64,000 nt of DNA, from assembly GCA_016223245.1 (NCBI GenBank), contig JACRPL010000023.1, forward strand, positions 1 to 64,000. The letters are read 5' to 3'. The translations under genes and the position numbers were made by a program. Shown here one piece after another: positions 1-26,991 of the stretch; position 1 is the stretch's first letter, and the number at the start of each line of letters is the position of its first letter. The notes below the pieces were generated by a model. It searched no databases. It had not been told where the DNA came from and was given only the letters and a program-made list of their open reading frames with translations. The DNA is from Candidatus Saganbacteria bacterium (lineage in GTDB: Bacteria > Margulisbacteria > WOR-1 > XYC2-FULL-46-14 > XYC2-FULL-37-10).

Positions 1-102
1 TATTTGCTGTATCTTTTTAGCATATTCTTCGCTGATATACCCTATTTTAATAAACTGAGGGGGGTCACCATGTCCGTAGAACTTCCTAAGGATTATTTTG
101 TA

Positions 103-164: not shown

Positions 165-3100
165 ATGGCCGTTCCTGAAGTCAAATTAACATTCTTTCAA
201 AAGAGATTTTCGCCGCTCGTCAGCAGAGTCGGCGGAAGGATCTTTTTGGGAAATGGATTAAACAGAAAGCAATTGTTAGGCGAACTTAGAAACACGTCAG
301 CAAGAGATAGCCTCGCAGAACCTCAAGTTGTTCGAATTCTTGAAGCGGAAGGGATAATTAAAAACGAATTCAGAGGCAAATTTCAATCCTTGGGTGATCT
401 TCGTGAATTCCACTTGAGCGGTATATTAACTAAAACGAAGCTAAGTGATTTCTCCGCCGCCCTATCTTTTGGCTTTCAGTCAGATGCCCTAAAACCTTTC
501 GAATCAGAAACAAAGAAAACGGGAATCATGATTCGTGCGGCAGACTCAATCTGGGAACGAAGAGAAACCGGCTATCTTGCAGAAAGTGAAACCATACGAA
601 TTCGTGAATTCGCTGAGCTGATATCATATTCAGCAGGAAAGATAGCAAGCCACTCTTCATTTCTTGAGGTCTTAGTCCCAACAGTAGCAGAAACAATCGG
701 AGCCTTTTTTGGTCAAATAAAATATTCCGCTGCGGCAAAACAAGTGGAGTTACAGGCTTCATTGCTTACGCATCAGCAAAATGGTCTATTTACTAGGACA
801 GATAGCATATCGGAACAATCAAAAGAATTCTACCAAAGGGTTGCAAGCATCCTGGCAAATCTCGGAGCCCCAAGCGCGCTTATTGCATTAACAGAGATTG
901 TGGAAGAATTTCGGAATATGCCGGAAGTAAATACACATGAAAACTTAAACATAATTCGCGCATTGGCCTCATTAAAGAAAGTTTTAGAGACAATGGAAGA
1001 ACTTAGAACGGCTAATGCCGCAACGCCAAGCGCCAGATGGATGTTGCAGGCAAACTTAAGAGCTCAAATAAAAACAGATTATAACGAAGCTCTTCAGCTT
1101 CTAAAAACCGAAAAGACCCATACTGGTTTACTGCAAGATTTTAGAAAATGGACTAGAGCATTAGCAATCTTAAGCGTTCCCTGGGCCCTTTCCGGCGGAT
1201 TAATCTACGGGACATATAGATTTTTCAAACCAGCAGACCCTCCGCGCGCAGAGTACTCCCAAAAAACTACCCCCTTCTCCCCCGCACTTGAAAAAGCTTG
1301 GGCTTACTGGAATGCAAATTTCACAGAAACAACAATTGATGGCGCAAGATTTGTGGTCGATCCTTCAATAGACAGGCGAATCCTTTCGGAAAGCATGGCA
1401 TACGGGTTATTAATGTCGGTCCAACAACATGACAAGAAAACATTTGACGAATTGCTTTCAGGCTTAACAAAACTTGAGGGCCGAGGGTTGCCTGCTTTCA
1501 AAGCCCACATAGATCCAAAAACTAGAGGACTTAAAATTGATTCCGATGCGGAAAGAACATCAGCATCGGATGCTGATCAAGATATCACTTTTGCGTTAAT
1601 TCAGGCACACTCAATTTGGGGGACAGAAAGCAATAGCACATATAAAATAAGGGCCCAACAATATTTAAACAGGCTCTGGGACGGTACAGTGCAATACGAC
1701 GGGCATACAGCAATATTGAAGCCATCGGAAGATTGGGGCGGAGCGACTGTATCTACGGGGGCTACTTTTAATGCGTCATACGTTTCCCCTTTCATGCATG
1801 AGGCGTTTAATAGGTTCGACAGCAATTCAAAACATGATTGGAGTCTCTTAATGAAAACCAGTATAAAATTAAGAAGGGCAGCAATAGAGGCCTCTGTCTT
1901 AAAAACAGGAACAGGCTCAGATGTGCCAAAAGTTGCTTTTGCCGAAGTACCCGACTGGGTTGTTGTTTCTTGGCCGGCTAATTCGACTGTGCCAGAACTT
2001 TTCACTCACCCAAATAGACAATATACAATGGGATTAGATGGAATTCGCACACTTTGGAGAATAGCTCTGGATGCAACACACCTTACCGATCCCGATGACT
2101 GTATAAAACTTGCCCGTGAAATGATGGATAAGATAAAAGATGTTCCAGCTCTTATAGATCCCGATAGAAAGGATGGCGATCCCAAGAGAGAGATCAAAAA
2201 TTCTGAAACGGCCCTGGCTGCATATGCCACCTTAGCTTATGCCGCGGCACAGCCAATGTCGGCAGATAAATCTGCCGACGCCGCCAAAGCATATGACATG
2301 CGTTATCGAACTTTGATAAAACAATTCCTGGGTATTGCAAGAGCCGACGGAACCTTTGCAACAGGAAACGATCCGGATTCGGGAAAAAGATACTACAACC
2401 AAACAACCGCATGGATCGCAGCAAGAATAATTGAGCATGGATTCGGAAGGTTCGCAGTTTCGCTATTTGATGGATCAGACAGCAGCCCGGGAAAAGAAGG
2501 ACAAGTCTTGCGATCCAATCATAGGAGAGGTTATTTGATCCACACGGAGTATTTGCCACTATGGGCCGGAGGACACGGATTTATAATTGATCCCGAAGAA
2601 CGCGCGGAACTTGACTTGATTAAAAGATTGGTATGGCTATATGACGAAAAGAATGTATTAGGCGGAATAAGAGGGGGTGGGGATTCGAGAACTTTAAGAG
2701 TCAGATTGCTGGCTGCCGAAGAATTAAAAGGATCGACATTTTATTCTGAAGCTATAAACCAATTCCGAATAATTCTCGAAAATGCTTCTGCGGAAAAACA
2801 CCCCAAAGAATCTGCAACAGCTGTTGCGGATATTTTTGGAGCAATTGAAGGCGCAAATATGCCGGCAGAAGCAGCCGTTAAACTATTTGGTGAGATAATA
2901 AATAAAAACCCTTCAAATCCATATTTGCATTTAGGTCTTGCGCAAGCACTGGCATCAACATTTAATAGGGCTTATTATGACAAAAATGATGGAAAAGCAA
3001 TAGAAGAACTAAATATCGCCCTTAAAGCTGGAATTCCAAGTTTGTCATTTGGCGCGCATAGTTTACTTGCAGAATTACACAGAAGAAATGCAGACTATGC

Positions 3101-4706
3101 CGTAAGGACAAACGACAATCAGCGACACCCTGCAGAATATAAAGCGGCTATTGATGAGATAGATCTTGCGCTTAAAGCACATTCAAAAGCCGCACAATTA
3201 GATCCAAAAATGCAACCCGAGTTAAAAGCAGATCTGCTTATGCAAAAAGCTTTGATCTTATTCCAAGCTTACGAAGCTTCGAAAGACGGGAAAAAACTTA
3301 ACGAAGCAACCGCCATTTACGAAGATAGCGCAATTGATAAGGCTTTCGGATCTATCAAAGATCCACAGATCAGGCAAGAAGCAAGATCAAAGAAAGCTCT
3401 TGGGCTTTCAAATTGTTATAAGGCTGCAAAGAAATATGCCGAAGCTTTAACAATCATCTCGGATGAAATGGAAAGAATTAATAAATTATCCAAGTCTAAA
3501 AAATCCAATCCTTTCGAGGATCCAGGATATGTTCAATTGACTGTCGAGAAAATAAGGATCCTCACCCTACAGAAAAAAGATGGGGCATCGGTTGATCCTA
3601 TTGCCGAAGCAACCGGTCTATTAGACAAGATCCCATCCGGCAGATTGAGAACAAGCTTTGAACGAATTGTTTATTTTTTAGATAAGGGTGAATACGAAAA
3701 AGCTAGAAAAGACGTGGCACAGCTACAATTGCTCCGCACTAGATTAGCTGTCCCTTCTGAGATAGATATCGTTCCAGATGCTGCCCTACCTCAATTAAAA
3801 GCTATCGAACAGGACATAAGAAATACCATTCTTCCTGAACTCGCAAAACTGATAGGAGATTCGTCGCCAGAAGCAAAACAAAAGGCGGAAACCCTAAAAG
3901 CTGCTCTTAAGGCAAAAATAGACTCGGTTGCAGGCATTAGTACAAAAGATAGCGCTGTCTCAAAATTGTTCAATTCCGGCGAAACTAGCCTATTTGAAGC
4001 CGGAAAATACGAAGCAATTGCAGAAAACATTGAAAGAGCGGAAGAATTAAACGCTACCTTAAAAGAATATGCTGGAAGACCAGCTACCAAAGAAATAGAT
4101 GTGTTATTGGCGGCAAATGGCATAGCAGAACATCTTAAAAATACGGCCGATCCTAAGAGTATTATCGCTGCAAGAACGGCCGCAGAAGCAGCGATTAGAG
4201 AGTGTGGGACATCCTTGGATGAAGCACCACTTTCTCCTAAATGGTTTGCAGCCATGAGGGAATTCTATGAGGCGGCTATTTGGATGATAAAAGACTTAGA
4301 TGGCGATGTTGCCGCTAGGGATTTTACTCGTGAATTGCTGGACGAACATTACAATCCAACTGTGGCCCAATCGGACAGCTTACGCGCGCAATTGTTAAGG
4401 TCGTTAAGAGATAAAGAAGTTCGATCCGGGATAATGCCTCCATCAGAAAGATCGAAGTTTTTTGGGATTGTTGGAGACTTATATAGACTGGGGGCTCAAC
4501 CCGTAGAAGCTATAAAAGCCTATCGAAAATCGTTAGGTTTGGCCGCTGAACCAAAAGATGTGGCAAGCGAGAAAAAAGAATATGAATCATTATTATCAGA
4601 CCAACCTGAAAAAACTACCACCATAAAAAATATCGTTAATTTACCTACTGGTGATGAAAAGAGAGATGAGATGTTCGGCGAATTGAGAGAAAAATATGAC
4701 AAATGA
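165..4706 (+). CDS. Membrane-anchored GH8 glycosidase with TPR tail (BcsZ-like)
   Basis: 1513 aa. Residues 1-328 are an unrecognised, presumably cytoplasmic region. One hydrophobic segment (about 330-352) follows, then a GH8 domain at about 368-760 and helical TPR-like repeats from about 860 to the end. The GH8 match rests on E409 in SESMAYG (general acid position), the ASDADQDIT block at 467-475 (close to the family-8 signature) and D625 in MGLDGIRTLW (base position). GH8 enzymes cut beta-1,4-glucans or chitosan; BcsZ is the periplasmic cellulase of cellulose secretion systems. The start has an AGAGGGGG ribosome site 8 nt upstream. The next gene overlaps by 11 nt. Fusion of a membrane-tethered GH8 with a long TPR tail differs from BcsZ, which is a single-domain periplasmic enzyme. 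Substrate is unknown. Confidence 0.8.
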   Translation: MAVPEVKLTFFQKRFSPLVSRVGGRIFLGNGLNRKQLLGELRNTSARDSLAEPQVVRILEAEGIIKNEFRGKFQSLGDLREFHLSGILTKTKLSDFSAALSFGFQSDALKPFESETKKTGIMIRAADSIWERRETGYLAESETIRIREFAELISYSAGKIASHSSFLEVLVPTVAETIGAFFGQIKYSAAAKQVELQASLLTHQQNGLFTRTDSISEQSKEFYQRVASILANLGAPSALIALTEIVEEFRNMPEVNTHENLNIIRALASLKKVLETMEELRTANAATPSARWMLQANLRAQIKTDYNEALQLLKTEKTHTGLLQDFRKWTRALAILSVPWALSGGLIYGTYRFFKPADPPRAEYSQKTTPFSPALEKAWAYWNANFTETTIDGARFVVDPSIDRRILSESMAYGLLMSVQQHDKKTFDELLSGLTKLEGRGLPAFKAHIDPKTRGLKIDSDAERTSASDADQDITFALIQAHSIWGTESNSTYKIRAQQYLNRLWDGTVQYDGHTAILKPSEDWGGATVSTGATFNASYVSPFMHEAFNRFDSNSKHDWSLLMKTSIKLRRAAIEASVLKTGTGSDVPKVAFAEVPDWVVVSWPANSTVPELFTHPNRQYTMGLDGIRTLWRIALDATHLTDPDDCIKLAREMMDKIKDVPALIDPDRKDGDPKREIKNSETALAAYATLAYAAAQPMSADKSADAAKAYDMRYRTLIKQFLGIARADGTFATGNDPDSGKRYYNQTTAWIAARIIEHGFGRFAVSLFDGSDSSPGKEGQVLRSNHRRGYLIHTEYLPLWAGGHGFIIDPEERAELDLIKRLVWLYDEKNVLGGIRGGGDSRTLRVRLLAAEELKGSTFYSEAINQFRIILENASAEKHPKESATAVADIFGAIEGANMPAEAAVKLFGEIINKNPSNPYLHLGLAQALASTFNRAYYDKNDGKAIEELNIALKAGIPSLSFGAHSLLAELHRRNADYAVRTNDNQRHPAEYKAAIDEIDLALKAHSKAAQLDPKMQPELKADLLMQKALILFQAYEASKDGKKLNEATAIYEDSAIDKAFGSIKDPQIRQEARSKKALGLSNCYKAAKKYAEALTIISDEMERINKLSKSKKSNPFEDPGYVQLTVEKIRILTLQKKDGASVDPIAEATGLLDKIPSGRLRTSFERIVYFLDKGEYEKARKDVAQLQLLRTRLAVPSEIDIVPDAALPQLKAIEQDIRNTILPELAKLIGDSSPEAKQKAETLKAALKAKIDSVAGISTKDSAVSKLFNSGETSLFEAGKYEAIAENIERAEELNATLKEYAGRPATKEIDVLLAANGIAEHLKNTADPKSIIAARTAAEAAIRECGTSLDEAPLSPKWFAAMREFYEAAIWMIKDLDGDVAARDFTRELLDEHYNPTVAQSDSLRAQLLRSLRDKEVRSGIMPPSERSKFFGIVGDLYRLGAQPVEAIKAYRKSLGLAAEPKDVASEKKEYESLLSDQPEKTTTIKNIVNLPTGDEKRDEMFGELREKYDK

Positions 4707-7700
4707 TATTTCAATATTAAACAATTTCACCTGCACCGGAATAAATAACATAAATTCTGCCCTCGGTACCCTTCAATATGATGCAAATAGATACGATGAA
4801 ACAGTAAAGCAGTTCAAGCTCGACTTAGATATTATAGAATGTCTAATAGATTCTCCTACTAAGGGGGATGCCAGTACATTCAAAGCCAATGCAGCAAAGA
4901 TCTTAATTAGATATGCCGAAGCATTAGCAAGAGATAGGAATCATTCGGCAGCATACGAAGTATTAACTGCTTTAGAAGGAGCCACTGGGTTTACAATAAA
5001 AGATACAAAAGTTGAAAACTTGGCAAGAAGGCTTGGAATTGATACAACATTTTTGCAAAAGATTTGTAAAAAGTCTAACGATGACAAAAATGGCTTTGAT
5101 TTTCCTTATGCAAAATATTTGTCTTTGAAAGCCGATGCACTTAAAGGACTCAAAAAATATAGCGAGGCGATTTCCTTATATAAACAAGCCTTATCTCAAG
5201 ACACCGCCGGCAGATGGTCAGACTGCGCGCCATATGCAAAAGTTGGCTTGCTAGAAGCAGAAATAGCGACCGGAAAAGTAACCTCTGAAAACATCCAGGC
5301 GAGAACAGAAGAAGAAAAAAAGTTTATTTCGAGCCGTAGCTTAAGTCCCCGCGAAAAACAGGCCTTGTTTAATAGACTCGATAAGCTATTTAAATTTGTT
5401 AAAAAAGATTTTGAGACTCTCATCAAAGAAGATGAAGCCAAAATAAACGATCCCGATTTATCGCCAGCGGACAAGGCTCAAGCTCGCAAAGATAAGGCAT
5501 GGCATCTCCTTAATTTGGCCAACTTCAAAGCCTTCGGCAAACCGGAAATAAAAAAAAATGATGACCCCAAATTGATATGTACAGCAGATACATGCCCTGT
5601 CGTCGAAGGCATACTCGACAAAATAGATGTCAAATTAAGCGATGAAATAAAAAAAAGTGTTATAGAAACAAAAATATTGTTCCTGCTAAAATGGGCAAAT
5701 CGATTAATCAAGGCCAAAGATATAAATACAGCGCTTGAGAAAGCTAAAGCCGCTGACGCATTAATAGATAGAAAAGAATTAAAAACTATAGCCTGGCTTG
5801 CATGGACTTATATAGATATAGCAAGAGCTGGGGAAAAAGAAGCCCTAACAAAAGCTCTGGCGCTAGTTGAGGATGAAGTAGGTGCAGATCAGATCGATAA
5901 AAACAGTATGCCAGACAAGAAAACCGGCAAGAAAGGGGGAATACGAAATGGAGTCGCCGATGCGATGATGGGCTTAGCCAAGAAATATCATGACACTGCG
6001 CTTTTGGACAAAGCCATAGGCTATTGCAAAAAATATGGGTTTGGCGAATTATATATAAAAGGGCTTTGGATAAGAATAAATGCTAAAAAAAACAATGAGA
6101 AAGCTATCGAAGGCGTTATTGGCGATTTAAAAACACTTGCGGCTATTTATTCAAGCAAATCAGGAAGACTATTGCCAGAAAAATTAGCCCTATCCTCTGC
6201 GCCAAAACTCACATTTGACGGCAAGATCAAATATTACACTATTGGGATTGTATTAGACAATATCTCGGATCTATTAAAGAAACATGGCGAGAAAGAAAAT
6301 GCAAAATTATTTCATGATGCCGCCATAGGTGAATATAAACACTATCAACCTATATTTGAAGATTTAGTAATTCGCAAGCCGACTTTTGAAAATTTTTCCA
6401 CCTTGGCGCAAATATATGCCGCGATAGGCAGATCATATTTGAATGAAAAAGAAAGCAAATCAGATGTGAAAATAAAAGGCCAAAATTATCTAAATTTTGC
6501 GGGATTTATTTACAATAAGCTGCTAGGCATACATGATTTTGTTTTTGATGCTCCTGCGCTTAGGCAAGACATTAAAATAAAATTATTGGCTAGCTTCGGC
6601 AAAACAAAAGAAGAAGCCAGATTTAAACACCTACATGAATTTTCAAATTATGCGCTGATCGCATTAGAAATTAAACTTAGAGGCATTAAAGTTTCTGGTG
6701 ATAACGCAAAGCAGGTGGGAGACGATTGCATAACAATATTAAGCGCAATAGAAAGAGCTTTAGAGAAAGAAACGGAAGAGGGTCTGATTGCCGCTCTTGA
6801 GAATGGGAAGATTGAAGTAATAAGAATTTGGTCTACGGCATTGATTCGGCTGGGAAGATCTAACGAAATTATTAAATTTTTAAAAGAAAATATCGCTTCA
6901 TCTCTAAGCAGAAAGAATTATCCCGAAGCCCTGGGCAATATAAAGATCCTGGCTTGGGCCTATAGCGAGGGGAAACAATACAATGAAGTTTTTGCGCTTT
7001 ATTATGCCTTATTAAATGGCGCCAATACCAATAAGGCGCCGGCATTAAATAATATCCTTGACCTGATAATTAAAAACAGGGAGAACCTCCTTTCGGCAGA
7101 AGCGCTAAAAGGTGCGGGACTTAGCATGGAAAAGCTGAAAAACTCGTTCACCCTGCTTATGGCGGAGATGTTTGCCAACGATCTTAAAGTTAAAATTACT
7201 GCCGCAAAAGATAAAAAGGATAAAGCTATAATATACCGCGATGCGCTTGCACTATTCGACAAACCCAGCATATTTGAAGAACTCAAAGTCCTGAATTTTA
7301 TGAACCTTGAAAAGATGGTCAAAGAAATTGCCGAGATCAAATCCGATGATCCGGAAGTTTTAAAAAGCTCATTCCAAGCATATCAACTTCTGGCATGGCT
7401 CCATTCTTTGAAAGGATTTTTGATCGAAAAAGTTAAAGGTGGGGGAAAAGGATCTATCGAATATGCCAAAGCCGCAAAAATGGGCGAAAAGCTTCTTGAA
7501 TTCTCGGCGGATATCATTGCTGATTTTAAGACTCAAGATGATACCCCCTTAACAAGAACTGATATTTATCTATTGGTCGCCGGCCTCTACCAAACTGCGT
7601 CCAAAGGAAACGAAAAATATCTGGAAGATGCCCTAAAAGCTTTTAATAGCGCTATAAAAGAGATCGGCGATCCAAAAGATGCATTAGGCAAACTCGCCTT

Positions 7701-10659
7701 GACCAAAGCATACATCGGCAAAGCGCAAGTCCTTTCATCGCAAGAAAATGCGGAAGAAACAAAAGAGGCGTACGAAAAAGCCTTGTCAATGATCGATCCG
7801 AAAGATAAAAAAATGATCCCTTATTTATTAACAGCCACATTAGGCAAAACCGAAGCGATCCTTGCCTTGGCGCAAAAAGGGAAAGACAACACAAAAATGG
7901 AAGCCGCGGCAGCAGAGGCAAAACATGATCTTGAAACGATCTTCGAATTAGTCAAGGATTCGACAAGCGAGAACAAGTATAAATTCACGAACGCCCTCCT
8001 TTGGGCGCTATCCACCCTATCGGACGCGAAAGGCAAAAATACCCCGGAACTAACGATGCTTATAGCCCTCTATCGTGCATTATTAAAAGGGAAAGATGAT
8101 ACAAGCATCACGGGCTTTTACGGCGGAGCTCTCAAATTCGTGCTTGAGAATAGGAAAAGTTTGTTGGACGAAGATATGCTCAAAGAATTCGACGCGAGCA
8201 AATTGATCTTAAGAATGCGCTATATCGGCGCCCTTCTTAGTGCTGAACTTTATGATGAAGGATTTAAGGAATTCCAAGCGATTGAAGGCTTGTTAAAAGC
8301 TAATGATGGGAAAGAAACTTTAAAAAATGAAGCTTTAGAAATTGCGAATCTTCTCGCGCGCATGGCTGAAGTTTCATGTTACAACTTGGGGCTTCTTGAT
8401 AAAGCTGAAGAATTATTTAAAAGGGCTTTCGATCGCGCGCCAAAGACAGATACAGGATCATTATCTCGTATTTACAGGGGGCTTGCTTTCATTTATGAAA
8501 AGAAGGGAGACTCCGATAAGGCTTTAAAAAATCTCGACAATGCTTTGGCTCTTTCCGGGACAAGCATCAAAGCATTTTCTGTTGATTACAAGGGCGAACT
8601 CGCTAAATTAAAAGACAAAAAAGATGTCGCCCTGATCCAGACATTATTAACTATTGGAAATATATATAACTATAATTCGGATATTAACGACGCTAAAGAA
8701 TTAATAGCTGATGATGAAAACGCAAAAGAGCACCGCAGGAGGATGGCGTTATCATTCTACAAAGTCGCCGGCCTCTTAGCAAGGGGACTAGATGACAAAT
8801 ATCTGCGCAGACGCCTTATGGCAAAAGCGTGCCACGGCGTTGCCGAAACTTATCGTTTATTTGACAAAGAAGAAGGATATGACGAGGCAAGAAAATTTTA
8901 TGAACTTGGGATCGAGCTATTGGACAAATCGGGTAAGATATTTAAAGACGATAAAGATGATACCGATGAAAGCGATGAAAGCAGGCGCGATAGCAAAAAA
9001 GTATTGGGACAGCTATTTGGCGGGCTCGCGACAAACTACGCCATGCAGAAACAATTCGATATAGCTAATGCTAAAATTGGCGAAGCAACTGCAGCTTTGG
9101 CCTCCACACGAGTTATCGACGAACAATTTAAAGATTTTAAAGATAAAAAAGCTGCAATCCTTAACGCTTTGATCAGAGCCGAATATATTGATAAAGCGGG
9201 CAATATTCAAAAGAAATTTTATGATGCGAAAAAAGAAGGATTCAAATTAGACGCGACCGTCGAAGCCGGCGACCTAGATAAGATCTATGACATTTTAAAG
9301 GGAACTATTGATAGTGAAAAAGAAGCTGGCGGTGCCATTAGAAAATCGGACATTCTTGCGGAGATCAAAAAATCAGCCGTTTCTGACGCTGAGGCTGAGA
9401 AGGTGAAAGATCTACTTAGGGATCTGGATGAAGATTATTTCGTATTTAAGCCTACAACTAAAAAAATCGATATTGAGAAACTGGAAATTCCAGATAGCCT
9501 AAAGGGTATTCTTCTTGATGCTTACAGAAAATCAGACATAGATGCAGTGAAGAATCTGGAAGAGACCACAAGGAATATAAAGAGAAGGCAAATTGACAAG
9601 CTGACTACCGTCCAATTTGGATTTACACGCTTAAGCGAAGATTATAAAAGCGGTTCTACTCATAGCCATAAAACCGGATGGACGCCTTTTGTTAGATCAA
9701 TTATCAATATAATAACAAATGCTTTTGATCTCCGAGTAAATTACATCGGAAGTCTCGGAAAAGAATTTCCAAGAATTCTCGCAGATAAGAAAAAACGACA
9801 GTCTGGATTGAATGTTAATAGACAGCATACCGTATCCGCTGATGTAGATTGGCATCCCGATTATAGCGTTCTCAAAAGAATTCGTGTTGGAGCGGAATCT
9901 ACAACGGCGACATACAGCATTGCGGAAAATCCTGGGCAATATAATAGATCCATCAATAATGCAGCTTTCCAATCTCTAACTTTAAGAGCTGAAGGCGAGT
10001 TCGCAGGTAAACCATTGGCAAAATCAGCTCCATGGCTGACGCTTAGCTTCCAACCTAGAATAGCAGTGTTAGCTAGTAGTACTACATCTCCGCTTATAGA
10101 GAATGCAAAACAAATTCAAAAAGAGATATTGGAAAACGACCCAACATCCAAGGTAAGAATTGAAACAGGAAGAAAGCCTGATGACTCAGAAAGAGTATCT
10201 ATCACAGGAGTTCTCTCCGCAAATATCGATGTACCAGGATTATTCGGCTTGCCAAGATTTAATTTATTTGGTAAGCCATTGTTATTATCAACAAGGGTTG
10301 GTGTTGGCGGCGGGTATGATCCACTCCGTTATTTCGGGAACGGATTCTGGCCTGTGAATGGAAATGAGCCTCTGTATAGCCTATACCCATTCCTGAATGT
10401 TAGAGGTGAATATGAACTTGGGTCAAGAAATAGCTTCCTATTCGAATTTTATCTACAAAGAACAGCGCCAGGCCTTTCTCAACAAGCTTTCAGAACCGAA
10501 TTATATGGGAATGCCAAAGCTGGCTGGAGACATTATTTTGACAACGGTCAAAGCTTTGAGGTAAATCTAGAAGGCTCCAAATTTAAAGCGGAAAAGCCGG
10601 CAGCCAATGAACACATAGATAATAATTCTGGCAGTATAAATGGAGTCTACAGATTTTAA
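4696..10659 (+). CDS. Giant TPR protein with C-terminal outer-membrane beta-barrel (BcsC/PgaA-like)
   Basis: 1987 aa. Residues 1 to about 1560 are degenerate helical TPR repeats. A charged linker follows. From about residue 1640 the sequence becomes alternating beta strands and ends in NGVYRF, with the terminal Phe typical of outer-membrane proteins. TPR plus barrel is the architecture of BcsC and PgaA, which guide and export polysaccharide, and the preceding GH8 gene matches the bcsZ-bcsC order. The first start codon (4696) lies 11 nt inside the upstream gene, and the frame is closed by TGA at 4684. A weak GAGAG site precedes it. No signal peptide is visible, which is odd for an outer-membrane barrel; it may be secreted unusually or be joined to the upstream protein by a frameshift. 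No synthase gene is in the window. Confidence 0.75.
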   Translation: MTNDISILNNFTCTGINNINSALGTLQYDANRYDETVKQFKLDLDIIECLIDSPTKGDASTFKANAAKILIRYAEALARDRNHSAAYEVLTALEGATGFTIKDTKVENLARRLGIDTTFLQKICKKSNDDKNGFDFPYAKYLSLKADALKGLKKYSEAISLYKQALSQDTAGRWSDCAPYAKVGLLEAEIATGKVTSENIQARTEEEKKFISSRSLSPREKQALFNRLDKLFKFVKKDFETLIKEDEAKINDPDLSPADKAQARKDKAWHLLNLANFKAFGKPEIKKNDDPKLICTADTCPVVEGILDKIDVKLSDEIKKSVIETKILFLLKWANRLIKAKDINTALEKAKAADALIDRKELKTIAWLAWTYIDIARAGEKEALTKALALVEDEVGADQIDKNSMPDKKTGKKGGIRNGVADAMMGLAKKYHDTALLDKAIGYCKKYGFGELYIKGLWIRINAKKNNEKAIEGVIGDLKTLAAIYSSKSGRLLPEKLALSSAPKLTFDGKIKYYTIGIVLDNISDLLKKHGEKENAKLFHDAAIGEYKHYQPIFEDLVIRKPTFENFSTLAQIYAAIGRSYLNEKESKSDVKIKGQNYLNFAGFIYNKLLGIHDFVFDAPALRQDIKIKLLASFGKTKEEARFKHLHEFSNYALIALEIKLRGIKVSGDNAKQVGDDCITILSAIERALEKETEEGLIAALENGKIEVIRIWSTALIRLGRSNEIIKFLKENIASSLSRKNYPEALGNIKILAWAYSEGKQYNEVFALYYALLNGANTNKAPALNNILDLIIKNRENLLSAEALKGAGLSMEKLKNSFTLLMAEMFANDLKVKITAAKDKKDKAIIYRDALALFDKPSIFEELKVLNFMNLEKMVKEIAEIKSDDPEVLKSSFQAYQLLAWLHSLKGFLIEKVKGGGKGSIEYAKAAKMGEKLLEFSADIIADFKTQDDTPLTRTDIYLLVAGLYQTASKGNEKYLEDALKAFNSAIKEIGDPKDALGKLALTKAYIGKAQVLSSQENAEETKEAYEKALSMIDPKDKKMIPYLLTATLGKTEAILALAQKGKDNTKMEAAAAEAKHDLETIFELVKDSTSENKYKFTNALLWALSTLSDAKGKNTPELTMLIALYRALLKGKDDTSITGFYGGALKFVLENRKSLLDEDMLKEFDASKLILRMRYIGALLSAELYDEGFKEFQAIEGLLKANDGKETLKNEALEIANLLARMAEVSCYNLGLLDKAEELFKRAFDRAPKTDTGSLSRIYRGLAFIYEKKGDSDKALKNLDNALALSGTSIKAFSVDYKGELAKLKDKKDVALIQTLLTIGNIYNYNSDINDAKELIADDENAKEHRRRMALSFYKVAGLLARGLDDKYLRRRLMAKACHGVAETYRLFDKEEGYDEARKFYELGIELLDKSGKIFKDDKDDTDESDESRRDSKKVLGQLFGGLATNYAMQKQFDIANAKIGEATAALASTRVIDEQFKDFKDKKAAILNALIRAEYIDKAGNIQKKFYDAKKEGFKLDATVEAGDLDKIYDILKGTIDSEKEAGGAIRKSDILAEIKKSAVSDAEAEKVKDLLRDLDEDYFVFKPTTKKIDIEKLEIPDSLKGILLDAYRKSDIDAVKNLEETTRNIKRRQIDKLTTVQFGFTRLSEDYKSGSTHSHKTGWTPFVRSIINIITNAFDLRVNYIGSLGKEFPRILADKKKRQSGLNVNRQHTVSADVDWHPDYSVLKRIRVGAESTTATYSIAENPGQYNRSINNAAFQSLTLRAEGEFAGKPLAKSAPWLTLSFQPRIAVLASSTTSPLIENAKQIQKEILENDPTSKVRIETGRKPDDSERVSITGVLSANIDVPGLFGLPRFNLFGKPLLLSTRVGVGGGYDPLRYFGNGFWPVNGNEPLYSLYPFLNVRGEYELGSRNSFLFEFYLQRTAPGLSQQAFRTELYGNAKAGWRHYFDNGQSFEVNLEGSKFKAEKPAANEHIDNNSGSINGVYRF

Positions 10660-10708: not shown

Positions 10709-10733
10709 AGCCCATAAAATATTGTTTTGGGCT
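10709..10733. terminator. Bidirectional terminator hairpin between convergent genes
   Basis: AGCCC pairs with GGGCT and an inner AAAA with TTTT, around a short loop. An A-rich run lies on the left and a T/A-rich stretch on the right, so it can serve both the barrel gene and the minus-strand lipoprotein gene. The lipoprotein stop codon lies in the right arm. Confidence 0.65.
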
Positions 10734-11439
10734 ATAAATTTATTTCTGGCGATATTGGTGGAAAAGAAATATTAACCATGTATGCAGAGCTTCCACCGTC
10801 ATCATAATATCCCCTTCCCCCATTTTCTCCCTCAGCCAAAATAGACCCAGATAAATCTGCATTTGCAGCGACTATCTCAATAGCATTACCACCGTAACCT
10901 GCGGGGTCATTTATGCCGCCACCCTTTCCACCGCAAGACCCAGCTTCAATTCCAAAACTATCGATTAAGCCATAAGATTTTCCTCCTATGCCACCAACGC
11001 CAATATGGCTGCCGCCCGCTCCACCAGACCCAGCAGCGCTATCTCCACCACCAGAGCCATTCGCGCCATCACCCGGACCACAACTCAATGCTTCAACAAT
11101 AATTTTCGATCTTTCGTCAACTTCAAACAACGAGGTAGTAATTTTTATGTATTGAGATGAAAAATGTACCGTTCCACCATTAATCACTCTAAAACTTGAA
11201 GGATTCGGACAATCAAATAGAATTGCTTCTTCTGAATCTATTACTAAAGGCTTTCCGTTTTCACATTCTGGCTTAACGGACATACATCCCAAGGTCGGGG
11301 CCGTTACAAGAAGTGCAGAAAAACCAAGATTCATCAATCTTGTTCGACTTGTCGTAAGAGTACTTAGCTTATTATCAAATAATTTTACAAATCCGAAGCT
11401 TTGTTTTATTCCACCGAAAAATCTTGCTGCAGATATCAT
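10732..11439 (-). CDS. Putative Gly-rich surface lipoprotein
   Basis: 235 aa from the ATG at 11439, which has a perfect GGAGG six bases upstream; a longer reading to 11529 lacks such a site. After an unusually long n-region come a hydrophobic stretch and a TLGC lipobox, so a lipid-anchored exported protein is likely. The mature part has a short beta-rich segment and then a glycine-rich domain (GGAGGSHIGVGGIGG, GGKGGG, GENGGRG) with the pattern I-x-I-x-A ... L-S-G-S-I-x-A-x-G, as in glycine-rich beta-helix surface proteins. Its function is unknown. It converges on the polysaccharide-type cassette and shares a version of that cassette's upstream motif, so a cell-surface role is plausible. Confidence 0.6.
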   Translation of the reverse strand: MISAARFFGGIKQSFGFVKLFDNKLSTLTTSRTRLMNLGFSALLVTAPTLGCMSVKPECENGKPLVIDSEEAILFDCPNPSSFRVINGGTVHFSSQYIKITTSLFEVDERSKIIVEALSCGPGDGANGSGGGDSAAGSGGAGGSHIGVGGIGGKSYGLIDSFGIEAGSCGGKGGGINDPAGYGGNAIEIVAANADLSGSILAEGENGGRGYYDDGGSSAYMVNISFPPISPEINL

Positions 11440-11501
11440 AGATTCCCTCCTAAAATTGAATTCAATTGAGCACATTCGATCAGAAAAACAAGTATACTGC
11501 C

Positions 11502-11524
11502 TATGTCGAGAGCTCCGAAAAATT
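11502..11524 (-). promoter_or_regulatory. Upstream motif, copy 3 (TTTTCGG ... TCGACATA)
   Basis: On the minus strand, AATTTTTCGG, five bases, then TCGACATA, about 60 nt upstream of the lipoprotein start. It resembles the blocks upstream of the GH8 gene and the LRV gene but is the weakest of the three. Confidence 0.25.
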
Positions 11525-11560
11525 AGCAAGTCAAAAACAATGATGATTTAAAGAGATTTT

Positions 11561-11641: not shown

Positions 11642-12554
11642 TTAACCATCATCAGGACACACCCCTCCCTTGGGCGGCGCCAAGGCCGCCAGCAGGCTAA
11701 GCGTTTTTAGCGTGCCATCTTTAAGCGCGCCCATAATTTTCTTGAACCATTTTTTGAGATTAGAAGCCATGGCTGCAAGATAGGCCTGAATTCTGACCCT
11801 AGACAATCCTCGGTATCTTGCCCTTTTTAGCCCATGGTTGTTTTTTAAATCTGCCTGCCTCGGCTCGATCTTATAGCGTTCTCCTTTCATCACGAGCTCA
11901 TATTCCTCAAACCTGCGCTCGGCAGGATATCCTGCCGGGCAAAAAAGGTGTCCGCATTCAAAGTAGAAATTATCCCATACAAGGCCTCTCTCTTTGTTCT
12001 TGGTTGGCACCAGAGGGATGTAAAGATTTGAAACGCCAAGAGCTTTCAGCTCCGTCCTTGTATTGCCGAAGTCATATTTGGCGTCGGCAGTGAAGTGGAG
12101 AGGAACTATTCCTAAGTTTTCTTTTTGCTGTTCCAATAGAGGAGCAGCAGATTTTTCTTCCGGGTGGCCAGCCTTGTCCGCTTCAATAGCAGTTATGATC
12201 CCATACTTGTGGTCAAGATTGGACTCAACTTTGTATCCGGCAAAGAACTTTTTGTCACTCTTGGCTCCCCAACTTGCGTCTGGATCCGAAGGATTGATCA
12301 TTTTGCCGACAATCTTTTTTTCATCTTCTTTCTTTTGCTTTTTCCCTTCCTCATCAAAACACTCGTCCTTTCTTTCTTCTAATATCCTGTCCAGGAGTTC
12401 CATTTCCTTTTTCACTTCAATATTGTTGTTGAGGGAAGAGCTGCGCTTGACAGCGTCGTAGACCAGACCTGCAGCCGCAATCAGCTCCTCAAAATACTTC
12501 TGCTTGAATGAAATCGTCAAAGAATGTTTTTTCTTTAGCAGACGTTTTAAGCAT
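11642..12554 (-). pseudogene. Truncated IS1182-type DDE transposase
   Basis: The open part (292 codons, 12520 to 11642) is the catalytic core of an IS1182/IS5-class transposase: D81 in PDASWGAKSD, D146 in ADAKYDF, E219 in KIEPRQADLK, then the HGLKRARYRGL tail typical of the family. The N-terminal DNA-binding domain is missing. A proper start with a GGAGG site lies at 12554, but its frame (MLKTSAKEKTFFDD...) stops after 21 codons and joins the core out of frame. The usual 450-550 aa protein has therefore lost roughly 150-200 residues by an internal deletion. No clear terminal inverted repeats were found. The copy should be immobile unless helped in trans. Confidence 0.8.
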
Positions 12555-14226: not shown

Positions 14227-14553
14227 TCAAATAATGGGAGAAAGAAGTTTTTTCAGTATAGGAAGATCTGTTTTACAGGTATCCCAAACTACTTTTCTGT
14301 CTACACCAAAATATTCATGTATCAACCGATTTCGCATGCCTACCATATCCTGCCATGGTATTGACGGATTCTTTTTGCAGAAATCCGCACTTATATTTTT
14401 TGCCGCTTCGCCGATAATTTCAAGCTCCCTAACAACGGCGTCTAGCCTCATATCATCCTGAAACAGAATTTCCTGTGATTTTCCCGACAAGTATTGCTCG
14501 ATCTTTTCAATTGCTTCAAAAATATGGCTTAAATAAACTTGATTATTTCCCAT
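14227..14553 (-). CDS. hepT: HepT-like HEPN-domain RNase toxin
   Basis: 108 aa from the ATG at 14553, which overlaps the end of the nucleotidyltransferase gene by 11 nt. The all-alpha HEPN fold is indicated by the RNRLIHEYF segment, which contains the R-x4-H-x-Y catalytic motif of HEPN ribonucleases. In HepT/MntA systems the nucleotidyltransferase adds AMP to the Tyr of this motif and silences the RNase. Motif and partner are both intact, so the pair is probably functional. Confidence 0.85.
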   Translation of the reverse strand: MGNNQVYLSHIFEAIEKIEQYLSGKSQEILFQDDMRLDAVVRELEIIGEAAKNISADFCKKNPSIPWQDMVGMRNRLIHEYFGVDRKVVWDTCKTDLPILKKLLSPII

Positions 14554-14848
14554 AAACAGGTTCCGCTTTTTTAAAAACATCACTTCTAAAATATTTGCTT
14601 AAAGCATCGGGTGTTTGTAAGTCAATTTTTTTCCCGACATATTTTTCAATAATATTTTGGATGTTTACCAGCCGAAAGAAGCCTACTTTTGATTTCGGGG
14701 AAAATTCCACCAACAGATCGACATCGCTGTCTTTGTTTGGTTTGCCATACGAATAGGACCCAAAAAGACGGATGCTTTTAATGTCTTCTTTCAAATTATT
14801 CTCTTCAATTGCCCTTAGTATTAATTTCTTTATTTTATATTTTCCCAT
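14543..14848 (-). CDS. mntA: MntA-like nucleotidyltransferase antitoxin
   Basis: 101 aa minimal nucleotidyltransferase. FGSYSYGKPNKDSDVDLLVEF carries the G-S ... D-x-D metal-binding motif. It lies directly upstream of, and overlaps, the HEPN gene, the standard order for a HepT/MntA toxin-antitoxin pair. A TGA-TATTAT extended -10 lies 9 nt upstream of the start, so the mRNA would have almost no leader. Confidence 0.85.
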   Translation of the reverse strand: MGKYKIKKLILRAIEENNLKEDIKSIRLFGSYSYGKPNKDSDVDLLVEFSPKSKVGFFRLVNIQNIIEKYVGKKIDLQTPDALSKYFRSDVFKKAEPVYGK

Positions 14849-24970: not shown

Positions 24971-25840
24971 TTTGATCTGCTTCGCGGAGGCAATAGGCCT
25001 TGAAAAAAGCTTGTTCCCCAACTCCAAAAATTGTTCAACTTTCCCGGTAACCAAATAACTATACTTCGCCTTATGATTTTTACTGTTCAATAATTGGTGT
25101 TTCCCCAAAACTTCCATCAATTCGTTGGCTGCATATTCTGATGGATCAACAAGCGCAACATTTGGACCGGCTATGCTTGATAAGACCTTAACCAAGTGCG
25201 GATAATGCGTACATCCGAGGATCAAAGTATCGATCCCTTCTTTTAATAGCGGCTTTAAGTATTCGACCGCAATTTTTCTTGTCTCATCGGTCTCGATAAA
25301 TCCCCCCTCGATCATTGGGACAAACAAGGGGCATGGAGAGCTTAAGACCTTTGCGGTATCTTTTAACTCATGGATCGTTCCTTCATAGGCTTTGGAATTA
25401 ATGGTCGCAAGAGTCGCTATGACCCCTATCTTTTGGTTATGCGTCTTATCAAGCGCGGCCTTTGCTCCCGGCCTTATAAGGGATATTATCGGGAATTTAT
25501 ACTTCTCTTTTAGCACAGGATAAGCGATAGATGAAGATGTCCCGCACGCCATGACAACAGCTTTGACCTTGGCTTTTTCAAAATGATCGAGGATCTCCCT
25601 GTTTATCTTAATTATCTCGTCATCCGGCCTTCCACCGTAAGGAACGCGGGCGGTATCGGCAATATAAATGATATCTTCGTGGGGAAGTAGCCTTGTTATT
25701 TGCGAGAGGACAGATAGCCCGCCGACCCCGGAATCAAAAACGCCTATCGGGGATGCTTTTTCACTCTTCGATCCGTCCTCGATCTTTTTCGAATATGAAA
25801 CCACTTTATCGGATTTAATTTTTTGTATATCGCTATTCAT
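24965..25840 (-). CDS. murI: Glutamate racemase
   Basis: 291 aa. It supplies D-glutamate for peptidoglycan. IGVFDSGVGGLSVL is the N-terminal signature; the two catalytic cysteines are in ACGTSSS and LGCTHYPHL. The first site has Gly where many homologues have Asn (ACNT). About 30 charged residues precede the usual start; no later start codon is evident. The ATG overlaps the stop of the amidase gene (ATGA), so two wall enzymes are translationally coupled. Confidence 0.92.
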   Translation of the reverse strand: MNSDIQKIKSDKVVSYSKKIEDGSKSEKASPIGVFDSGVGGLSVLSQITRLLPHEDIIYIADTARVPYGGRPDDEIIKINREILDHFEKAKVKAVVMACGTSSSIAYPVLKEKYKFPIISLIRPGAKAALDKTHNQKIGVIATLATINSKAYEGTIHELKDTAKVLSSPCPLFVPMIEGGFIETDETRKIAVEYLKPLLKEGIDTLILGCTHYPHLVKVLSSIAGPNVALVDPSEYAANELMEVLGKHQLLNSKNHKAKYSYLVTGKVEQFLELGNKLFSRPIASAKQIKL

Positions 25841-26991
25841 CTTGAAAAATAATTAATTATCCCCCTAGTTACGCTGTCCGCGATCTCCTTTTTAAAGCTT
25901 TTTTTTTGGGCCAGAGCCCCTTCATGCGGATCCGTGATATATACAGGCTCGATCAAGACCGACGGCATTGTCGAATGGTGGATCGTATAGAACATTGCGC
26001 GCCTAACTCCCCTATCCTGCCTCCTCAAATTCAATACCATTTCCTTGTGCACAAGAGATGCCAGCCTAAAGCTCTGCGGGGTGTAATAATACGTTTCGGT
26101 GCCGGATATCGATCTCCCGTCGATCGAATTATAATGCACTCCAATATAAATGTCAGCTTTGGCATTTTCCGTAAAATCGACTATATCCGAAAGATCGTTC
26201 TTAATATCCAATCTCCTGGTCATAAAAACCGAAGCGCCATTTTTCCTTAATTGGTCGGAGATAAGAAAAGCGGTCTTTAATGTCAGGTCTTTTTCCCTAA
26301 TGCCGTTTACTCCAAAAGCTCCGGGATCTTCCCCTCCATGCCCAGGATCAATTACTATCTTCCGCCCCTTCAGGATATTGCTTGTCTTTGCGATCCCGCT
26401 AATGATAGGTTCCAGGACTTCTATTTTTATTGGGTGGCGGGCATCTGCGCGCGTATCTTCGGGACCAGGGTATTTAACGCCCTTGTCTGTGTACATGCAA
26501 GGGATATCTACATCCGAAATCTCTATGAGCACTTCCCCTTTTCCATATAAAGAAGCGATCTCATATTTAACATTCTTTTTTAATTCGATGACAAGTCTTG
26601 CATTATCGCCTTCGGGGCTCGTTGACCTAATAACTTTGATCCTTGAGCTTTTCTTGGGTGCGGTTTCGAATTTGGACGTTTCGGAATCTTTAAAAGTTAA
26701 GACAAGCCTATCAGGGAATGCTTTAATTGTTGGGGTCACATAATCGGACGTATTGACCAATATCTCATCATAATATTTATGCCACTTGATCTCCGCGCTT
26801 TCTATCTTTACGGGCTCGGCAAAGGCAGGAACAATAAATAAAAAGCAGAACAAAACCGCAAGAGCAATAGCCCTCACCCATTTTATTCTTATTTGAAAAC
26901 TATTAGATATTTCCCCTCTCCCACTGGGAGAGGGGTTGATAGAATAAAGTATCGAAACAAAATAGTCGGGTGAGGGTTTAGAAAGTTTCAC
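25837..26991 (-). CDS. N-acetylmuramoyl-L-alanine amidase with AMIN domain
   Basis: 384 aa as given, from a GTG overlapping the upstream gene by 14 nt. A signal peptide core (about residues 40-58, ending PAFA) is followed by an AMIN domain (about 60-165), which targets the divisome or wall, and an Amidase_3 catalytic domain (about 200-384). Zinc ligands are seen in DPGHGG, REKDLT and GVHYNS, with the second Glu in LIEPVYI. About 35 residues before the signal peptide are partly encoded by a palindromic repeat (NPSPSGRGE), so the original start may have been nearer the GTG at 26877. No good ribosome site decides between them. Confidence 0.88.
   Translation of the reverse strand: MKLSKPSPDYFVSILYSINPSPSGRGEISNSFQIRIKWVRAIALAVLFCFLFIVPAFAEPVKIESAEIKWHKYYDEILVNTSDYVTPTIKAFPDRLVLTFKDSETSKFETAPKKSSRIKVIRSTSPEGDNARLVIELKKNVKYEIASLYGKGEVLIEISDVDIPCMYTDKGVKYPGPEDTRADARHPIKIEVLEPIISGIAKTSNILKGRKIVIDPGHGGEDPGAFGVNGIREKDLTLKTAFLISDQLRKNGASVFMTRRLDIKNDLSDIVDFTENAKADIYIGVHYNSIDGRSISGTETYYYTPQSFRLASLVHKEMVLNLRRQDRGVRRAMFYTIHHSTMPSVLIEPVYITDPHEGALAQKKSFKKEIADSVTRGIINYFSR
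26911..26977. repeat. Palindrome variant at the start of the amidase gene
   Basis: A CCCCTCTCCCACTGGGAGAGGGG hairpin is followed about 30 nt later by CGGGTGAGGG. It is a related but distinct form of family A. It occupies the 5' end of the amidase frame, next to the end of the CCA-adding enzyme gene. Confidence 0.65.

Follow-up and report, generated by a model that had tools for sequence, protein, structure and literature searches.

Organization of the locus

Two giant genes at the start of contig C23 raise the question of whether they encode a polysaccharide export machine, as an earlier note on this DNA had proposed, and, if so, which synthase would supply it with polymer. The window, i.e., the whole stretch of DNA that was analysed, comprises bases 1–64000 of C23, one of the 24 contigs of a 1.65 Mb genome (G000) of an uncultured bacterium. 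Its closest relatives with a name, a Saganbacteria MAG and WOR-1 RIFOXYB2_FULL_46_45, place it, in common usage, in the phylum Margulisbacteria. The description of the genes as giant and overlapping was accurate: the two open reading frames share 11 bp and sum to 3500 codons (Table 1). Base 1 of the window is also base 1 of C23, so that the contig holds no DNA to its left; 164 bp, beginning with part of a multi-copy IS element, separate gene 1 from the contig end.

Table 1. Features of the gene pair and its left border, in window coordinates.
Feature	Position	Strand	Remarks
IS right end	1..89	.	contig C23 begins inside element
Gene 1	165..4706	+	1513 aa: N-terminal domain like that of the synthase, then TM segment, GH8 and a helical C-terminal part
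Synthase-shared domain	222..539	+	residues about 20–125, matching N-terminus of relatives' upstream GT2 synthase
Probable membrane-spanning hydrophobic segment	1158..1229	+	residues about 332–355, from reading the sequence
GH8 domain	1293..2444	+	residues 377 to about 760; Pfam and PDB CelA matches
Glu409	1389..1391	+	predicted GH8 proton donor, SESM motif; invariant in six relatives
Asp625	2037..2039	+	predicted GH8 catalytic base, GLDGIR motif
Helical C-terminal part of gene 1	2472..4703	+	possibly degenerate TPR solenoid
Gene 2	4696..10659	+	1987 aa: TPR/helical, beta-rich C-terminus, no signal peptide seen
Predicted outer-membrane beta-barrel	9562..10656	+	residues 1623–1987, terminal Phe

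Domains of the two proteins

The presence of a GH8 domain in protein 1, as first read from the letters, is settled by sequence. The Pfam model PF01270 matched residues 377–571 with E 1.5e-18 (67.4 bits, against a cut-off of 24), the PDB sequences 1kwf/1cem (CelA) matched at E 4e-16 to 8e-16, and both catalytic motifs, with E409 and D625, are in place; YDGIR can also be read in the GH8 sequences of G003 and G010. The NCBIfam BcsZ equivalog model gave 55.4 bits and did not reach its cut-off of 299. The TPR tail that had been assigned to the GH8 protein fared less well. The window protein produced no significant TPR match (best TPR-type match 0.03–0.1), although the corresponding C-terminal part of the relatives' GH8 proteins gave weak ones, at E 8e-5 to 4e-4.

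In protein 2, TPRs exceeded the Pfam cut-offs only around residues 1216–1286, and weaker matches were seen near 143 and 1004. These repeats support part of the TPR array of about 1600 residues described earlier, but its full length is an extrapolation across mostly degenerate helical sequence. The C-terminal barrel is likewise backed in part. The last 360 residues contain 10 amphipathic-strand segments, compared to 4.2 ± 1.7 in shuffles, the composition of this region is shifted relative to the helical part, and the terminal Phe is common to the relatives, all of which points to a barrel. However, AF2 prediction of the barrel region (two sequences) gave a pLDDT of 28, too low for a fold search, and a PDB sequence search with protein 2 and the barrel profile matched no chain.

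Among the barrel proteins whose N-terminus is intact, nine in all, full or partial, none showed a signal peptide; clear Sec signals exist elsewhere in G000, e.g., in the amidase-like gene at 25837–26991. Since an outer-membrane protein should have an export signal, this counts against the barrel assignment: either the barrel is exported by an unknown route, or the assignment is wrong. The GH8 partners vary in this respect, several having a Tat-like TRRxFL leader and others a TM segment or nothing (L054–L055, L042–L053 and the window).

Conservation of the cassette in relatives

The GH8 gene was found in nine other genomes of the class (G001 and G003–G010), where it encodes a protein of 1302–1607 aa. 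It is followed by the barrel gene in seven of the nine (G001, G003, G005, G006, G007, G008 and G010), the latter being divided into two ORFs in G006 and possibly in G007. In the other two, the contig breaks off within the barrel gene (G009) or 168 codons past its start (G004). Far from never being adjacent in related genomes, the outcome that the earlier note had set against its own reading, the two genes thus lie side by side in seven. Just upstream of GH8, all nine relatives have a giant gene of 1836–2616 aa or, in G001 (1022 + 1166) and G004 (1513 + 1276), two overlapping genes.

A different arrangement is present in G011 and G016, which encode a single protein with an N-terminal GH8 and a beta-rich C-terminus, preceded by a GH26-type or related helical protein. 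At L049:5786-15258 and L053:5951-14268, a single GH8-to-barrel protein comes after a GH26-type or related helical protein, and the gene preceding this pair in L049 has an IED...QRGQRW motif. Contig C20 of G032 (L025, L040) has an open frame of 5577 aa with two GH8-like stretches.

A diverged GT2 synthase upstream of GH8

Pfam yielded nothing convincing for the relatives' giant upstream gene. The proteins were divided into type I (G003, G004, G006, G007, G008 and G010) and type II (G001, G005 and G009), and their profiles were compared with that of nine canonical processive GT2s. Type II scored 77 (E 5.9e-9) and type I 57.9 (E 2.9e-6), while permuted alignments, reversed alignments and unrelated membrane proteins, used as controls, scored at most 21. 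Neither profile gave a signal against the canonical GT2 on contig C12 of G000 alone, due to the use of single-sequence profiles.

In type I, the distance from SED to QxxRW is a constant 38 residues in 6/6 sequences, and 140–168 residues further on there is an [FW]xVT motif, which resembles the gating-loop motif of BcsA. DxD-like motifs (NADTDN or NDADY) occur upstream, and the DxD-like, SED and QxxRW motifs are found in most rows of the alignment. The first GT2 motif, as assigned by alignment and by eye, precedes DxD by 1,038 to 1,543 residues, and the split synthase genes of G001 and G004 are divided within this insertion. Some motifs are eroded: type II is without the Q of QxxRW, the first motif is degenerate in G001, and its acidic residue is missing in G003. 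When the first-motif regions alone were compared between type I and type II, the match was weak (E 0.013). AF2 prediction of the C-terminal core of the synthase (two sequences) reached a pLDDT of 31, too low for a fold search, which leaves its GT-A fold putative, and a PDB sequence search with the core returned nothing usable. The profile comparisons and motifs nevertheless show the upstream gene of the relatives to be, as far as homology can tell, a processive GT2 synthase that has diverged and whose catalytic domain holds an insertion of about 1,000–1,500 residues. At L095:12236-19483 (-), residues 1425–1527 of the synthase insertion matched the MbfA (iron exporter) model at E 3.4e-6, far below the cut-off.

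A probable synthase piece at the N-terminus of protein 1

The 330-residue N-terminal part of protein 1 had been described as unrecognised, a statement that no longer applies to residues about 20–125, which match the N-terminus of the relatives' synthases. A profile made from the first 150 residues of eight synthases was run against 1230 ORFs and retrieved window protein 1 at E 2.1e-6, the best of the unrelated ORFs having E 0.91. In addition, 0/500 shuffles reached the score of protein 1. Extension of the match past residue 125 was unsupported: residues 125–372 gave no independent match and agree with the synthases in position and TM segment only. At about 105 residues, the match is short, which weighs against the fusion described below. 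When the relatives' GH8 proteins were checked for the synthase N-terminal domain, none was found to have it.

The hydropathy maximum of protein 1 is at residue 332 (mean 1.78 over 12 residues) and precedes the GH8 domain. A hydrophobic stretch at about 332–350 thus agrees with the earlier view of a membrane-anchored GH8, but the anchor appears to be a piece of synthase that occurs in this genome only and is not a feature of the system. The simplest reading is that protein 1 represents a synthase N-terminus fused to GH8, presumably through a deletion in which the catalytic part was lost.

Probable absence of the synthase, and the IS element

No synthase was detected when G000 was searched for type I and type II, and the search for BcsB (PF03170), which the earlier note had proposed to look for, gave no match in this genome. 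A GT2 synthase is found directly upstream in the nine relatives, but none of that kind was detected in G000, the completeness of which is estimated at 100%.

The left border of the locus is formed by the IS element. Bases 1–74 to 1–89 of the window are identical to sequences at the starts of C21 and C3 and at the end of C18. The element is ~1.1 kb long and present in several identical copies (C18 53724–54799; C9 85679–85824; starts of C21 and C3), at which the contigs break. The copy on C18 has inverted ends and encodes a 302-aa transposase-like protein, for which HTH and IS481-type leucine-zipper matches were obtained. The idea that the shared 89 bp might be a shuffling promoter was rejected in view of this copy, and a promoter scan at the IS end found none. 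Three right ends of the element were counted versus two left ends (C9 and C18 only), and there is no synthase at the C9 and C18 contig ends that bear the left end. One left flank is consequently missing from the assembly, so that a lack of the synthase at the window locus is probable, though unproven. A synthase could lie in the missing upstream flank, or be too diverged for detection.

Were it to lie just beyond the IS, or in a gap of the assembly, the cassette would be complete and active, and the shared N-terminal domain would be a docking domain. The end of the contig at a multi-copy IS, 164 bp before gene 1, is compatible with such an arrangement, as is the unrepresented left flank, and a docking domain common to both proteins would account for the N-terminal match as well. 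We consider this unlikely, given a completeness estimate of 100% with no trace of a synthase, the lack of one at the C9 and C18 ends with the IS left end, and the lack of the N-terminal domain in all of the relatives' GH8 proteins. With no synthase detected, no BcsB, and an N-terminus that is apparently a piece of synthase, the copy in the window probably falls short of a complete machine.

G000 does have a canonical GT2 of 794 aa (IED...QRTRW), located on C12 beside a UDPGP-domain gene, with homologues in four genomes of the phylum, its own included. To regard it as a substitute synthase is speculation. In its surroundings on C12 (L003:1111-3495 (-), L009:1775-6227 (-)), the GT2 stands beside a 1090-aa UDPGP/GHMP-domain gene and an SIS-domain gene, a neighbourhood that is possibly a separate polysaccharide locus.

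A model for the cassette

We suggest that the cassette of this WOR-1-type Margulisbacteria class operates in the manner of synthase-dependent polysaccharide secretion. A giant GT2 synthase in the inner membrane would polymerise and translocate a glycan, the GH8 protein would trim the chain in the periplasm, and the TPR-barrel protein would guide it out across the outer membrane. In G000, the synthase gene would have gone from the locus, with the IS element now directly upstream of gene 1, and its N-terminal domain, possibly with the first TM helix, would anchor GH8 to the membrane. The window would then hold a synthase-less derivative, being either a remnant or a trimming and export unit now fed by another synthase, e.g., the C12 GT2. 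We judge this explanation as a whole, secretion cassette and synthase-less derivative together, to be reasonably probable. The export machine proposed earlier survives as a working analogy, given the GH8/TPR-barrel order and the upstream GT2 in the relatives, but not as a description of the window copy, which is probably incomplete.

A more specific version of this secretion model is a lineage-specific polysaccharide machine in which the GT2 is interrupted by 1,000–1,500 residues, its halves assemble in trans in two genomes, BcsB is dispensed with, and the barrel is exported without a known signal; we regard this as conceivable, if short of probable. That the proteins form no secretion device at all, and instead break down extracellular glycans on the cell surface or function in the cytoplasm while the GT2-like protein is catalytically dead, would fit the missing Q of QxxRW in type II, the degenerate first motif of G001, the lost acidic residue of G003 and the barrel proteins without export signals, but is quite improbable considering that type I retains SED and QxxRW at fixed spacing in six genomes, that several GH8 partners have Tat-like TRRxFL leaders, and that the synthase shares a tight operon with these genes in all nine relatives.

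Comparison with known systems

The likeness of the gene pair to bcsZ-bcsC was upheld as a working analogy, in that the GH8/TPR-barrel order recurs in the class with GT2 upstream in nine relatives. The full order in the relatives, GT2 synthase, GH8 hydrolase and TPR-barrel export protein (the barrel being predicted here), is that of BcsA-BcsB-BcsZ-BcsC, and the relatives' GT2 carries TED-, QxxRW- and FxVT-like motifs. Unlike in the Bcs system, there is no BcsB in G000, and the relatives' synthase has 1,000–1,500 residues in its catalytic domain and is sometimes split in two genes. Compared to BcsZ, the GH8 protein is 3–4 times longer and has a helical tail, and it scored 55 on the BcsZ model versus a cut-off of 299.

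BcsZC and BcsAB fusions have been described in Zymomonas (PMC7112194). BcsZC, as a hydrolase–pore fusion, is comparable to the GH8-TPR-barrel single proteins of G011 and G016; however, the Zymomonas proteins differ in phylum, sizes and N-termini, and the window instead has a fusion of a synthase piece with GH8. The PNAG (PgaA/PgaB) and Pel (PelA/PelB) systems also combine a periplasmic hydrolase with a TPR-barrel porin, and the TPR part of PgaA is reported to bind the polymer and to modulate PgaB (PMC9384988), but their hydrolases belong to other families and no sequence match was found. In Patescibacteria and Gastranaerophilales (L058–L068), the GH8 gene adjoins a processive canonical GT2; there, in contrast, the genes are normal-sized and the GT2 is without the giant insertion.

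The most interesting part of this system lies outside the window, in the giant synthases of the relatives, a family entirely missed by standard domain libraries. With them, a cell-surface polymer system becomes probable in a phylum neighbouring the Cyanobacteria, for which the one detailed genome paper searched (PMC6349859) mentions none. A catalytic domain able to accommodate a thousand extra residues, or to be divided between genes, would allow the assembly of processive glycosyltransferases to be tested directly, and the window copy would illustrate the loss of the synthase from such a system with the trimming and export parts retained.

Three observations concern the right side of the cassette. 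A DDE_Tnp_1 transposase (Pfam) is encoded nearby at 11642–12520 (-), so that mobile elements bracket the gene pair. Between the pair and the transposase, at 10732–11529 (-), is a gene for a Gly-rich 265-aa protein with a hydrophobic stretch followed by a lipobox-like LGC and no Pfam match. Further on, two overlapping small genes at 14227–14848 (-) resemble, by eye only, a HEPN/nucleotidyltransferase pair of the HepT-MntA type.
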